Below the pieces are notes generated by a model. It was given only the letters and a program-made list of their open reading frames with translations. It was not told the origin of the DNA and made no database searches. This document shows positions 18,398 through 60,250 of a stretch of 64,000 bases of DNA, one piece after another (position 1 is the stretch's first letter; each line of letters opens with the position of its first letter). The translations under genes were made by a program, and so were the position numbers. The stretch comes from Phyllobacterium zundukense (lineage in GTDB: Bacteria > Pseudomonadota > Alphaproteobacteria > Rhizobiales > Rhizobiaceae): contig NZ_CP017940.1 in NCBI RefSeq assembly GCF_002764115.1, forward strand, positions 1,772,501 through 1,836,500, read 5' to 3'.

Positions 18398-18724
18398 TGC
18401 AAATCACCGGCCACTGCTGGCCGTCCCCAGGAATTTTACATTAAATGTATCGGTAACAGATCAGACTGGTGATGCAACCCCGACGCCCATCATTGGGACT
18501 GCACCAGTTCTATGAATGCCACTGATAGGTTGATACCAGCTTAACAACATCTGGCGGCTGCAACCTATTATCCGGCATGTGCGGCCATACTGGCGGTAGC
18601 TCCATAAGCAGGCATCACTTTTTATGTGCACCAGTCGCATAAGCTGCGAAAACGCCTGATAGTTCTGCACAAATTGCAAAAGTGCTTGAAATATACAAGG
18701 CAATCGCGCATAGAACGCACCGCC
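18398..18724. other. Gap between rlpA and tRNA-Ser
   Basis: No gene is supported here; it should hold the promoters of rlpA (minus strand) and the tRNA (plus strand), but I could not identify convincing boxes. Confidence 0.4.
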
Positions 18725-18814
18725 GGAAGAGTGGCCGAGTGGTTTAAGGCAACGGTCTTGAAAACCGTCGTGCGGGGAACCGTACCGTGAGTTCGAATCT
18801 CACCTCTTCCGCCA
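18725..18814 (+). tRNA. tRNA-Ser (anticodon UGA)
   Basis: A 90-base serine tRNA with encoded CCA. The acceptor stem pairs GGAAGAG with CTCTTCC; the D arm begins TGGCCGAGTGG; the anticodon stem-loop is CGGTCTTGAAAACCG with anticodon TGA; a long variable arm and the TTCGAAT T-loop follow. It reads UCA and wobble-related serine codons. No tail duplication marking an integrated element was seen in the downstream accessory region. Confidence 0.97.
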
Positions 18815-19170
18815 TGAAATCTGCCAAACATATTGATCTTACTCCAGATTTTGTTTAGGAAAATTATCATTCCTACCAGAATGTCTGCCGGCTTGCGGTG
18901 AGCCTTTTCAATTCTTCTCTGCGAAGTTGGTGGGCATGAAAGACTCGCCCAAAGAACGGATCAAACTCACCTCCGCTTCGGCGAACTACCAAGCAGCCAG
19001 AGTTTAAGCGTAAATTCGACGAGATCGACAGACCCGTTTATCGAGAAACCTTTGTAGTGACCATCGTCGAGGTTGCGCAACCAGCAGAATTCGTTTGCTT
19101 ATTAGGCTGCTGTTGACAGTTTTTGTCCATTGGCGGACAATTGAATTAACGTCAGGTATTTATCGGCCTG
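18815..19170. other. Gap after tRNA-Ser
   Basis: No coding region is supported. TTGACA at 19114-19119 is a possible -35 box for the small gene at 19224, with ACAATT 18 bases later. The rest shows no repeat or gene remnant I can name. Confidence 0.35.
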
Positions 19171-19219
19171 CTGGCGTTTGAGAGATGGAACGTGCTCCCG
19201 CCTGATGAGTGGAGGAGCA
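19171..19219 (+). promoter_or_regulatory. Conserved leader with ribosome-site-pairing hairpin (copy 1)
   Basis: The first 35 bases (19171-19205) match 20970-21004 in 34 positions, and both copies lie the same short distance before paralogous small genes. Within it TGCTCC (19193-19198) can pair with GGAGCA (19214-19219), which contains the ribosome binding site GGAGG (19211-19215) in part. A translational switch is inferred from the pairing; no known family is recognised. Confidence 0.5.
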
Positions 19220-19223
19220 TTCA

Positions 19224-19520
19224 ATGCAATTTCCGCGCTTTGACGGTGTTTATTCGCAAGAGGAATGGCGTATCTTGGCATTGGCTCATCACAGGGCCTG
19301 TCAAATGCTTGAGCGCGACCCGCAATTCCATCCTCTTGCCGAACGTGTTGCGCGTACAATCATGATTTTCTTCGAACGCGGCGAACGTGACTTTGGCCGG
19401 CTCGCCGATATGGCGGCAAAGCGTGAGCGCCGATTACCGGAAGATGATGACTGGTCGGACGCGGGCTTCCTGAAGCAAATGCTACTGGCCAGATCTGGCC
19501 GACCCCAGGATTTGCACTGA
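19224..19520 (+). CDS. Small protein of unknown function (paralogue of the broken gene at 21025)
   Basis: 98 residues, soluble, charged, with no signal peptide or membrane helix. Start is the ATG at 19224, five to nine bases after GGAGG. It aligns along its central part with the decayed gene at 21025 (shared YS..W.I...AH..A..LL pattern and RT.M..F.RG.RD), and both share a near-identical leader. I do not recognise the family. The helix-rich composition and the RT.M..F.RG.RD motif may define a small rhizobial family. Confidence 0.7.
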   Translation: MQFPRFDGVYSQEEWRILALAHHRACQMLERDPQFHPLAERVARTIMIFFERGERDFGRLADMAAKRERRLPEDDDWSDAGFLKQMLLARSGRPQDLH

Positions 19521-19722
19521 TCGTCGGGCCTAACCTTTTCGAAATTGGGCCTGCCCCCGTTTGTTTTTACATTTCTCCCAGTCCCCGATTACGCATCCTC
19601 TTGTCTTGCTCACGAAGGATGAACGATTAATTGATTGGTGCGTCAGGTGCATCTCGGCGTTAGATTGTAGCCCTCTTGCTTTCCGATTGAAACGAGACCG
19701 GTCGAACCGAGAGGCCATCCAC

Positions 19723-20016
19723 ATGAAACGCACATGGATATCTGTGGCATTTGGCGCTGTAGTGGTCGCGTCGGTGTCAGTATCAGCCCAAGCTCAGCCT
19801 GTCGTGACAGGTGCTTCATCTGGAACGCTCAGCAGAATCCTGAGCGGAGAAGGCAAACCTGGCGATTCTGTCACGACAAATTCAGGCATTACCTATCGGG
19901 TGCTTTCCAACGGAACCGTCGAAATGAGAAATCCCAGATACGGGACAGTCAAGTATTCGCGGCCCGAGCCGGCGTGGCAGCGCAACTTGAAGAACCAGGG
20001 TGTTGGTGGACACTGA
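19723..20016 (+). CDS. Small exported protein of unknown function
   Basis: 97 residues. A clear signal peptide (MKRTWISVAFGAVVVASVSVSAQAQ) suggests export to the periplasm. The mature part is glycine and serine rich with a short segment GITYRVLSNGTVEMRNPRYG that looks like a small beta-structured domain. The ATG at 19723 follows a GAGAGG ribosome binding site by nine bases. No family recognised. Confidence 0.75.
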   Translation: MKRTWISVAFGAVVVASVSVSAQAQPVVTGASSGTLSRILSGEGKPGDSVTTNSGITYRVLSNGTVEMRNPRYGTVKYSRPEPAWQRNLKNQGVGGH

Positions 20017-20140
20017 AACCGCCTATGATGCATACGCCGGGCTTGATCATTTTAAGTACATAATAGTATTGATACTGCGATTTATTGTTGAGATTCAACG
20101 AATCACGCAAAATGCCAGAAAAAGAAACGGATCTGGTACC

Positions 20141-20293
20141 ATGCGAAATCAAAACATTGAGCCTCTGCACTTTCGAGACTTTATGGTCATGCTTGCCTTA
20201 GTGGCGACGGTTGCACTCGTTCTTTGGGGAACAGTGTCCACGATCGCGAAAAACAGGCCGCATTTCGAAGCTCCCCCCGTCATCGCACGGTGA
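20141..20293 (+). CDS. Small single-helix membrane protein
   Basis: 50 residues with one membrane helix (FMVMLALVATVALVLWGTV) after a short acidic and aromatic N terminus. The ATG at 20141 has only a weak ribosome binding site (ACGG). Similar tiny membrane proteins occur across this accessory region. Function unknown. Confidence 0.5.
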   Translation: MRNQNIEPLHFRDFMVMLALVATVALVLWGTVSTIAKNRPHFEAPPVIAR

Positions 20294-20347
20294 CAAGTTT
20301 AAGGGCGTCCGCTGCAGCGAAGACACCTTCGCCGTCAGGCGACGAAA

Positions 20348-20575
20348 CTAATGTTTCAGCGACTGCTGGCCGACGTAAATTTCTGCCTCCTTCGCTGCTT
20401 CGATGAACGCGTCTCTCGCTTCGGTGCAGAGTATCTTGCCTTCCAGTGCATCGAGACAAGCCTGTTTTGCGGCTGACAGCTTCGGGCCGGTCTTAAGCGG
20501 CCAATTCATCGCCAGATTTTCGGCCGCTTCCTCGACACAAGAAACGTCACGCATCTTGCCGACCTGATGGGTCAT
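20348..20575 (-). CDS. DUF982 domain protein
   Basis: 75 residues from the ATG at 20575. The pattern VSCVEEAAENLAMNWP, then AKQACLDALEGKI and DAFIEAAKEAEI is the DUF982 signature, a rhizobial family of small proteins of unknown function that often exists in many copies. A consensus general-stress promoter lies 41 bases upstream (20616-20640), so it is probably induced by stress or stationary phase. Confidence 0.85.
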   Translation of the reverse strand: MTHQVGKMRDVSCVEEAAENLAMNWPLKTGPKLSAAKQACLDALEGKILCTEARDAFIEAAKEAEIYVGQQSLKH

Positions 20576-20615
20576 GATTGTCACATATGGGAAGGGCAAC
20601 TTGTGCATGCCCAGA

Positions 20616-20640
20616 AACGCCTATCGAGGATGTCTGTTCC
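20616..20640 (-). promoter_or_regulatory. General-stress (EcfG-type) promoter for DUF982 gene
   Basis: On the minus strand GGAAC (20636-20640), 16 bases, CGTT (20616-20619): an exact match to the alphaproteobacterial EcfG consensus, placed 41 bases before the start codon. Confidence 0.7.
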
Positions 20641-20648
20641 GCACGTCA

Positions 20649-20819
20649 TCAATTCCTTGTATCTGGTTCTTTATCGTGCATCCGCTTCAGCAAATCTTTG
20701 AACAATTTGTCATTCTGTACAGGCCGGTACCTGCTGTGAAGCGCATCCAAATAGGCGGGCTGATTCAGCTGCTCCCTCATCACTTTGACGGTCTTTGGGT
20801 TCTCATCTTTATCATTCAT
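20649..20819 (-). CDS. Small protein of unknown function
   Basis: 56 residues from the ATG at 20819 (a GTG- or ATG-like start four codons earlier is possible). Strongly charged, no membrane helix: MNDKDENPKTVKVMREQLNQ at the N terminus, a YLDALHSRYRPV middle and a lysine-rich C-terminal helix. A near-consensus EcfG promoter lies 24 bases upstream, which favours a real gene. No family recognised. Confidence 0.5.
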   Translation of the reverse strand: MNDKDENPKTVKVMREQLNQPAYLDALHSRYRPVQNDKLFKDLLKRMHDKEPDTRN

Positions 20820-20842
20820 GGCGTGTTCCATCCCAAGCGAAA

Positions 20843-20867
20843 AACTGTTTTCAGCCGCATTGGTTCC
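20843..20867 (-). promoter_or_regulatory. Near-consensus general-stress promoter
   Basis: Minus strand GGAAC (20863-20867), 16 bases, AGTT (20843-20846); one mismatch from GGAAC-N16-CGTT, at the least conserved position. Confidence 0.4.
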
Positions 20868-20969
20868 AGACCGGAAATATAACCTTAGGGATTCGCTCAG
20901 CTATTGGGATTCGATTGACTATTTATGTCCTGTGGAAGACACTTCTCATGTCGCCGGCATCTTTGGGCA

Positions 20970-21018
20970 CTGGCGCTTGAGAGATGGAACGTGCTCCCGC
21001 CTGAAAGTAAACGGGGAG
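20970..21018 (+). promoter_or_regulatory. Conserved leader with ribosome-site-pairing hairpin (copy 2)
   Basis: Bases 20970-21004 match copy 1 in 34 of 35 positions. Here CTCCCG (20994-20999) can pair with CGGGGAG (21012-21018, one bulge), which is the ribosome binding site of the gene at 21025. The downstream pairing arm differs from that of copy 1, yet the pairing is kept. Confidence 0.5.
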
Positions 21019-21024
21019 AACATC

Positions 21025-21268
21025 ATGCTTCATTCAGAAAATCAGATCACCTATTCATCCCAGGACTGGGACATCATGCAGCGCGCGCATGAAAAGGCCT
21101 CCGAGTTGCTTGGCCGTTCCCCGTCGACGCACGAATACGCCAACCGCCTTTCGCACAGTCATGAAACTGTTCGATCGTGGATTGCGCGATCCCGAAGTCC
21201 TTGCTTGGGTCGCCGCCAACCACGAAACCGGCGTTTCGAAAGTCGCCAAGAGCGTGAAAGCCGCATAG
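21025..21268 (+). pseudogene. Frameshifted paralogue of the gene at 19224
   Basis: Begins at the ATG at 21025 (MLHSENQITYSSQDWDIMQR) and aligns with the intact paralogue, but at the TTT of 21149-21151 the alignment jumps by one base to the +1 frame, which then reads RTVMKLFDRGLRDPEVLAW and ends at the TAG at 21266-21268. Without the shift the frame runs on to a TGA at 21274-21276 with a composition unlike the paralogue. Either a one-base insertion inactivated the gene, the base is an assembly error, or a programmed +1 shift is used at CTT TCG C. Confidence 0.6.
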
Positions 21269-21272
21269 CGTC

Positions 21273-21500
21273 ATGAGCTGGGCCGTGGGGCAGAATATTA
21301 AAGAGAAGCTCGAATGCCCGGATTGCGGGACGATCTATCTGCGTATTCCCGAAAACGTGCAGCTACACTTCCTTATCCAGTGTAATTCGTGTGCCAGAGT
21401 ACTTGGCAGATGGAGTGAGCTGGCAGCTGACTTCAATCCTCAGGGCGGCGAGAACGGCGTATTCGAAATGCACGATGGGCAGATCATTCGGAGAGAGTGA
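21273..21500 (+). CDS. Small zinc-ribbon-like protein
   Basis: 75 residues with two CxxC pairs 24 residues apart (CPDCG near residue 15 and CNSCA near residue 38), which should bind one zinc ion. Start at the ATG at 21273, close behind the broken gene and followed four bases after its stop by another small gene; the three may be one operon. Function unknown. Confidence 0.65.
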   Translation: MSWAVGQNIKEKLECPDCGTIYLRIPENVQLHFLIQCNSCARVLGRWSELAADFNPQGGENGVFEMHDGQIIRRE

Positions 21501-21504
21501 CGTC

Positions 21505-21627
21505 ATGCCAGATAATTCTAATGACAATAATGAGCCCTGGCCCAGCGCCCGGTCGTATATGTCATACGGTGCGGTGTTCTTTATCGGCGTTTCTATCGTA
21601 TTGGCGTTCGGCTGGTTCTTCCGCTAA
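21505..21627 (+). CDS. 40-residue membrane protein
   Basis: Short N-terminal polar stretch with several Asn and Asp, then one membrane helix (SYGAVFFIGVSIVLAFGWFF) ending in Arg. ATG at 21505 with GAGAGTGA before it, immediately downstream of the zinc-ribbon gene. Function unknown. Confidence 0.55.
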   Translation: MPDNSNDNNEPWPSARSYMSYGAVFFIGVSIVLAFGWFFR

Positions 21628-21814
21628 CACGACGCAACCAGCCTGATGGGTCATCTCAGCTACCAGGGCTCGTTTGAGCGCTGCCCGTTCCGTCGGCCGG
21701 CGCCCCCTTCTCAATCGAATTAGCTACTTTCCCACATATGCACGGCCGTTATCGTCCCAGGCACTGGCGGTCGACCGGTCGATTCGAGCACTACATCAAT
21801 GTGGGGAGTAGCGC

Positions 21815-59584: not shown

Positions 59585-60250
59585 ATGGCTGATAAGAAAT
59601 TCACAATTGACGTGGTGTCGGATGTCGTTTGCCCCTGGTGTTTTCTCGGCCGCAAGCGGCTGGAAAACGCGCTCGCCCTCAACCCGGATCTCGACGTGGC
59701 CGTGAACTGGCGGCCGTTCCAGCTCGATCCCAGCATTCCGCGCCAGGGCAAGGATCGTAATCGCTACATGCAGGAGAAATTCGGCAGTTCCGACCGGATT
59801 TTTGAGATCCACCAGCAATTGATCGAACTTGGCAAGGAAGCCGGTATCGAGTTTGACTTCGAAGCGATCCAAATCAGCCCGAATACACTGGATGCGCACC
59901 GCCTGATCCGCTGGGCGTCACAGGCGAATCCCAACGTTCAGGACAAAGTCGTCGGCATTCTCTTTTCCTACTACTTTGAGCAGGGAAAGAATATTGGCGA
60001 CCATCAGATCCTGCTGGAAGCCGCTGAAGAAGCAGGCATGGACGTTGCCATTGTTGCCAGCCTGTTGCCGACCGATGCGGATACCGTCGGTGTCCAGCAG
60101 GAAATCGACACAGCCAACCAGATAGGTGTGCGTGGCGTTCCCTGCTTCATTCTGGATCAGAAATATGCAGTCATGGGCGCGCAGTCAGCCGACGCGCTGG
60201 CCGATGCTATCCGCCAAACGGCAGATGGTTTCGAGCCACGCCACGTCTGA
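59585..60250 (+). CDS. FrnE/DsbA-like thioredoxin-fold oxidoreductase
   Basis: 221 residues, cytoplasmic (no signal peptide). CPWC at Cys16/Cys19 is the active site (VVSDVVCPWCFLGRKRL), and the cis-proline loop reads GVRGVPCFIL. It belongs to the 2-hydroxychromene-2-carboxylate isomerase/FrnE group, involved in disulphide chemistry under stress. Nine bases separate it from the upstream binding protein. Confidence 0.9.
   Translation: MADKKFTIDVVSDVVCPWCFLGRKRLENALALNPDLDVAVNWRPFQLDPSIPRQGKDRNRYMQEKFGSSDRIFEIHQQLIELGKEAGIEFDFEAIQISPNTLDAHRLIRWASQANPNVQDKVVGILFSYYFEQGKNIGDHQILLEAAEEAGMDVAIVASLLPTDADTVGVQQEIDTANQIGVRGVPCFILDQKYAVMGAQSADALADAIRQTADGFEPRHV

Follow-up and report, generated by a model that had tools for sequence, protein, structure and literature searches.

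Closest Described Systems

Several described RNAs share features with the leader examined here. The preQ1-II/III and SAM-II riboswitches resemble it in having a short 5' leader, a pseudoknot and control at the ribosome site, and ROSE elements, which precede heat-shock genes, are 5' leaders whose UGCUCC-type strand pairs with GGAG of the Shine-Dalgarno (SD) sequence. The ar14/CcsR small RNAs with the CCUCCUCCC motif are likewise alphaproteobacterial and contain a C-rich anti-SD sequence. SAM-II is reported to have been discovered in Alphaproteobacteria (PMC1273637), and flg-Rhizobiales, Rhizobiales-1 and Rhizobiales-2 are conserved RNAs of the same order (PMC2864571). The present leader of about 54 bases occurs twice, ahead of two paralogous small genes, in a 64,000-nucleotide stretch of the genome of Phyllobacterium zundukense (NZ_CP017940.1, positions 1,772,501 to 1,836,500, hereafter the window). 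It seems to represent an undescribed family of pseudoknotted leader switches.

The differences from these systems are considerable. In contrast to preQ1-II/III and SAM-II, whose Rfam families are unmatched here and whose genes are different, the SD sequence takes no part in the pseudoknot and pairs instead with an exclusive third strand. Unlike ROSE, the leader precedes small genes of unknown function, contains a pseudoknot and has no Rfam match. The ar14/CcsR RNAs are listed as small RNA genes, and in two related genomes the Rfam family ar14 lies beside the element, not at it (locus L060, 2280-2398; locus L070, 680-798; L and G numbers denote the loci and genomes compared). Neither flg-Rhizobiales (RF01736) nor Rhizobiales-2 (RF01723) matches at the element; Rhizobiales-1 is given no Rfam number in the available part of PMC2864571 and thus falls outside the comparison. 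Rfam 15 gave no match over either window element at E ≤ 10 (window 18600-21700), and in the loci of 24 relatives no family reached its gathering score over the element. The sole overlap in those loci was an antisense match to Chloroflexi-1 at the element's end in L070 (E = 3.2; score 20.9 bits, cut-off 80). A description of the element was not found in the literature searched, which mostly lacked subscription papers and is hence not proof of novelty; word searches of PMC11109978 and PMC8632094 gave no match.

Structure of the Leader

The element consists of a -10 box, a hairpin P1 whose loop contains GGC, a weak hairpin P2 (GARAG with CUYYC), a GCC directly after CUYYC, the SD sequence and the start codon. 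In copy 1, P1 lies at 19150-19176 on the forward strand, as do all window features of both copies, with CGTCAG (19150-19155) facing CTGGCG (19171-19176) and the loop GGC at 19165-19167. Its P2 lies at 19180-19199, with GAGAG (19180-19184) facing CTCCC (19195-19199) and A.C as the second pair, and is followed by GCC at 19200-19202. In copy 2, P1 occupies 20952-20975 (CGCCGG, 20952-20957, with CTGGCG, 20970-20975; loop GGC at 20966-20968), P2 occupies 20979-20998 (GAGAG, 20979-20983, with CTCCC, 20994-20998) and GCC lies at 20999-21001. The original prediction reported two near-identical 35-base leaders, and these were found again as CTGGCG(T/C)TTGAGAGATGGAACGTGCTCCCGCCTGA at 19171-19205 and 20970-21004, identical at 34 of 35 positions with a single mismatch. 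Its limits were too narrow, as each element begins at P1, at 19150 and 20952. A start codon follows each 35-mer by about 20 bases.

Comparison proceeded through three covariance models, with E-values calculated per genome. R1 was built from an alignment (A3) of 26 leaders and holds the pairs of P1 only, R2 holds P1 and P2, and the training set of R3 included copy 1 and did not include copy 2. A set of 71 elements (A6) was drawn from 67 hand-picked loci and further regions. It omitted weak matches (L076, L079, L080, L082, L084, L108, L110, L112-L120 and L122-L124) and near-duplicates such as L069, L090, L094 and L099. An order-wide addition brought in 27 newly fetched loci and the 60 matches ranked next by E-value, those ranked lower being excluded. 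Of 158 elements gathered, 143 were parsed; among the remaining 15, 13 lack a clear P2 arm or GCC and two have an anti-SD strand of other length, and several of the 15 look genuine (L092, L096, L158, L183 and L199). Filtering at 70% identity left a thinned set of 71 elements, and the strictest filter left 21.

The evidence for the fold comes from covariation. In 104 aligned elements, P1 is paired in 95.3% of cells and all six of its pairs show two-sided changes. For the structure as a whole, pairing reaches 90.2%, compared with 80.6% in shuffles and 35-53% in slid controls. R1, without the pairs of P2, still found a second sequence type, in which GAGAG and CUCCC are replaced by GGAAG or GAAAG and CUUUC, so that P2 is rebuilt. 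Covariation is seen at P2 positions 2 and 3 over the 143 elements (Fisher p = 4e-13 and 7e-16) and persists in the thinned 71 (p = 2.6e-5 and 6.7e-8). Position 3 is G-C in 122 elements, A-U in 15 and G-U in 6; position 2 is A.C in 113, G.U in 15, A-U in 9, U.C in 5 and G-C in a single element, as if a strong pair were avoided there and P2 had to stay weak enough to yield. A protonated A+.C pair in P2 could respond to pH. Unpaired bases are conserved as well, namely G at -1 (0.97) and at -3 (0.87) of CUYYC and U (0.88) before GARAG. The P2 loop of L217 (1501-1589), which precedes a response-regulator receiver gene, contains an extra hairpin (GCCGG...CCGGC), and L159, L196 and L225 have long P2 loops likewise.

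A pseudoknot between the GGC of the P1 loop and the GCC after CUYYC, its proposed partner, is likely on the basis of these alignments. GGC is present in the P1 loop of 136/143 elements, against a mean of 35 and a maximum of 50 in 500 shuffles. The adjoining outer pair is present in 75 of these 136, where 48.6 would be expected, and after thinning to 71 elements in 41 of 67 against 25.5 expected (0/5000 permutations). In copy 1 this flanking pair is C/U and is unformed. Among elements from viral contigs, which were collected separately (34 matches at E ≤ 0.01, of which 31 were analysed, 3 skipped by the parser and 28 counted), GGC is also enriched in the P1 loop, at 23/28 against 10.2.

The core can be read in another manner, as an upstream reading frame in which ATGGAACGTGCTCCCGCCTGA would encode a six-codon peptide (MERAPA) whose translation opens the hairpin. 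Both window copies do run from ATG through GAA, CGT, GCT, CCC and GCC to TGA. However, ATG is present in only 38 of 143 elements and a stop stands right after GCC in only 9 of these 38. We consider this reading extremely improbable, and a leader-peptide attenuator was rejected since start and stop are not conserved.

Pairing with the Ribosome Site

The strand that closes P2 has a second partner. GYGCUYYCG pairs with the SD region (P3), and does so better with its own downstream sequence than with swapped ones (-13.48 against -12.56 kcal/mol, 0/5000), an advantage that persists in the 71 thinned elements (0/5000) and within the CUCCC class (18/5000). The SD strand changes in step with CUYYC between the sequence types: GAAAGC lies downstream of 5/18 CUUUC elements and of 0/114 CUCCC elements, and GGAGC downstream of 1/18 and 43/114, respectively. 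In pseudoknot-free folding the mean probability of CUYYC-SD pairing exceeds 0.5 in 111/138 elements, against 24% with shuffled downstream sequence. In copy 1, P3 spans 19192-19220 and joins GTGCTCC (19192-19198) to GGAGCAT (19214-19220) with a duplex energy of -12.8 kcal/mol, in agreement with the pairing proposed in the original prediction. For copy 2 (20991-21023, -11.1 kcal/mol) a pairing of CTCCCG with CGGGGAG had been put forward; CTCCC (20994-20998) does pair with GGGAG (21014-21018), while the outermost pair forms only with a bulge. GTG (20991-20993) is also able to pair with CAT (21021-21023).

The place of the element in the message is equally constant. A start codon 12-26 bases after GCC, with an SD sequence and an open reading frame (ORF) of at least 35 codons, was found in 123/143 elements against 275/2860 random places. 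A TAnnnT box starts 10-18 bases upstream of P1 in 66/143 elements, compared with 5/143 and 13/143 in controls. Given the box ahead of P1 and the start codon downstream, P1 probably begins no more than a few bases from the 5' end of the messenger RNA (mRNA). For most elements the leader is accompanied by a gene, a pairing partner and structural conservation, any of which, if lacking, would have spoken against the prediction.

The two sequence types also bear on whether a partner acting in trans, a small RNA or an RNA-binding protein, grips GARAG or GYGCUYYCGCC and so frees or blocks the SD sequence. The core is almost invariant within the genus, as such a docking site might be, and C-rich regulatory RNAs occur in Alphaproteobacteria, GsrN being an example (PMC5869019). 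The core nevertheless changes in concert in three strands, and both types occur within the same genome in G122 (L060, L107), G193 (L070, L104, L109) and G233 (L062, L121), where a single trans RNA could hardly serve both. Docking in trans, for which no search for a partner was made, appears improbable.

A Probable Leader Switch and Its Possible Signal

A translational switch that would hide the ribosome site is well supported by the comparison of sequences. CUYYC is common to P2 and P3 and cannot join both together. In the ON state P1, P2 and the pseudoknot would form a compact fold that leaves the SD sequence free, and in the OFF state P3 would pair CUYYC with the SD sequence and hide the ribosome site. 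Since pseudoknot-free folding places CUYYC with the SD sequence, P3 is likely the resting state of the completed leader, and an outside signal would be needed for the compact fold; by binding and steadying it, that signal would turn translation on. The conserved unpaired bases beside CUYYC and GARAG, together with the pseudoknot, suggest a binding pocket, which makes a sensor of a small molecule or ion, and hence a new riboswitch class, our first choice, and sensing of a ligand the preferred input of the switch. Two features expected of a riboswitch are present in the main set, namely a conserved structured fold of the 5' leader (covariation in P1 and P2, evidence for the pseudoknot) and an expression platform exclusive with the aptamer. 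Overall, we find it fairly probable that the leader is an mRNA 5' switch with P1, P2, a pseudoknot and an exclusive P3, probably driven by a ligand.

The original prediction had suggested a translational switch such as a thermosensor or a target of small RNAs. The switch itself agrees with an SD-side strand that follows the changes of the leader strand across genomes. Neither of the two suggested inputs requires a covarying P2, a likely pseudoknot or conserved unpaired bases, so that a switch between two partners explains more. An RNA thermometer would let P3, or the fold of P2 and the pseudoknot, melt or form with temperature and without ligand, in the manner of leaders of the ROSE or cspA type. 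The hairpins that hide the SD sequence are moderately stable, and ROSE thermometers are known from rhizobia. On the other hand, the conserved unpaired bases and the covarying pseudoknot exceed what a melting hairpin needs, the ROSE families of Rfam match neither the window elements nor the loci of the 24 relatives, and no heat-shock protein family was found among 93 downstream proteins scanned. A thermometer is unlikely.

Several observations weigh against the two-partner, ligand-driven switch. The window leaders fold no better than shuffles (z = -0.66 and -1.02), P1 is missing from the minimum-energy fold predicted for copy 1, and single-sequence folds of 10 leaders mostly lie within shuffles (z from -2.13 to 0.29). 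With folding energies close to those of shuffled sequence, the case rests on comparison instead; of the structural tests proposed with the original prediction, covariation came out in its favour and the folding of single molecules did not. R2 and R3 contain P2, so the sets of elements found with them lean towards P2. Under the strictest filter (21 elements) the p-values for P2 become 0.007 at position 2 and 0.07 at position 3, and the pseudoknot flank is formed in 11/21 against 7.1 expected (120/5000). The advantage of the own SD region is not significant within the CUUUC class of 18 elements (597/5000). In the viral-contig set the flanking pair is not enriched (13/23 against 11.2), in a set where the parser put P1 visibly wrong in several elements. 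Finally, the genes served share no single pathway that would name a ligand.

A narrower claim, serious yet tentative, is that of an undescribed class of riboswitches of about 54 bases in Alphaproteobacteria, in which one common metabolite or ion activates the translation of a regulon of small unknown, DUF6894 and Crp/Fnr genes. With such a class, the Alphaproteobacteria, including Phyllobacterium and Bradyrhizobium, would have a further RNA switch of wide occurrence, and a large number of otherwise unrelated small genes whose function is unknown would belong to a single regulon. Once the signal is known, the genes served, the DUF6894 family included, could be placed in a physiological context.

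Genes Served

A usable ORF follows 132/143 parsed elements, with a median of 81.5 residues. We scanned 93 of these 132 frames, hand-picked to thin near-duplicates, and detected 16 DUF6894 proteins, five Crp/Fnr helix-turn-helix proteins and one cytochrome c, most of the others having no convincing family. By eye, a response-regulator receiver (L217), zinc-ribbon proteins and short membrane peptides were also seen downstream. The DUF6894 family is not named in the literature searched. As a set, the regulated genes may encode small proteins of accessory and stress type together with Crp/Fnr regulators. The leader had been described as a duplicated feature of two paralogues, which holds insofar as there are two copies and the genes are paralogous, but the element also precedes many unrelated genes.

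This variety bears on the possibility that there is no switch at all and that a fixed 5' structure sets the stability of the mRNA, or a low constant rate of translation, and is copied along when genes duplicate. A 5'-terminal hairpin can have a protective effect on mRNA, and in one genome paralogues do carry the element. Yet the genes behind it include unrelated ones (a cytochrome c and a response regulator besides DUF6894 and Crp/Fnr), and two exclusive pairings are kept. We regard a fixed structure as quite improbable and retain the switch as the preferred reading.

Distribution of the Family

A search of genomes for the leader and its genes, as proposed with the original prediction, revealed a widespread alphaproteobacterial family. 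An exact search with 19 bases returned nine stretches, all labelled Phyllobacterium, and an 18-base core with at most two mismatches matched in 14/20 genomes of the genus, some matches reading as unrelated (L032, L036, L039 and L040). The genome of the window has six elements (three on C1 and one each on C2, C3 and C4), and all of them precede genes of one small-protein family; three other genes of this family (L023, L025 and L028) have no element even at E ≤ 10. In the GTDB family, R1 matched 59/394 genomes at E ≤ 0.1, many weak matches among which must be chance. In the order, R2 matched 99/397 genomes and 47/142 genera at E ≤ 0.05; about 20 of these genomes could be chance, and 53 of the 99 have a best E of at most 1e-3. 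R3 matched 28/385 genomes of a class sample at E ≤ 0.01, with about four expected by chance, and 14 of the 28 lie outside the order at E ≤ 1e-5. Most of the 17 class-wide loci read have an ORF after the element, but a good one is lacking in L221 and L226, and in L224, L225 and L227 the element ends in GGC, GCT and GCA in place of GCC. A phylum sample yielded 44/388 genomes at E ≤ 0.01, five of them outside the class, whose six matches were rejected as chance, lying within open reading frames and lacking the core. The highest copy number seen was 11 matches in genome G018, every one at E ≤ 2e-5.

The element is also present in plasmid records, on a plasmid of P. zundukense and one of Bradyrhizobium japonicum. 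Among viral contigs, a pattern search picked out 29 IMG/VR stretches matching the core (L234-L262), and strong matches (31, E ≤ 4e-6) lie in 26 of them. Several of the 29 carry two elements, and by eye Crp/Fnr- and DUF6894-like proteins follow some of them. These occurrences hint at mobile cargo or at host flanks.

The Two Copies and Their Neighbourhood in the Window

With R3, both copies stand far above chance within the window (E = 4e-12 and 8e-12). A third match at 59608-59677 (E = 0.013) was rejected as chance, as it sits in apparent coding sequence, presumably of a DsbA-like protein. Sigma-70-like promoters can be read upstream of P1 in both cases. That of copy 1 (19113-19141) consists of TTGACA (19113-19118) and GACAAT (19136-19141) with a 17-base spacer, and that of copy 2 (20915-20943) of TTGACT (20915-20920) and GACACT (20938-20943) with the same spacing. 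TTGAC is invariant across 13 Phyllobacterium-type leaders. An EcfG promoter with GGAAC inside the leader was rejected by reading, there being no fitting -10 box at the proper distance.

Gene 1 (19224-19520, forward strand) encodes a helical small protein of 98 amino acids without known family. No Pfam or NCBIfam family matched gene 1 or a gene in L007 closely related to gene 2. The predicted structure of gene 1 has four helices at moderate confidence (mean pLDDT 70), and the fold had no PDB match at E ≤ 0.001. Sequence-profile matches to designed TIM barrels were set aside as short stretches of synthetic helices. Protein searches returned 16 and 10 relatives, all organism-labelled ones belonging to Phyllobacterium.

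Gene 2 (21025-21276, forward strand) is a paralogue of gene 1 with a frame broken near 21145. Its conserved second half continues in another frame at about 21146-21268, and a single protein is matched by the two halves separately, each in its own frame (L024 and L029). Gene 2 is thus frameshifted relative to its relatives, which the original prediction had missed, and is either a pseudogene or affected by a sequencing error; its leader is intact. After gene 2, the window contains a small zinc-ribbon-like ORF (21273-21500, CPDCG...CNSC). In L012 the helical small protein carries a domain of this kind as a fusion, and in L102 one lies directly downstream of the element. Divergent from copy 2, an ORF of 60 residues lies on the reverse strand at 20649-20831. 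The region 20664-21098 also matches L002 (on C3 of the same genome) at 68%, and the arrangement around copy 2 may therefore predate the copies.

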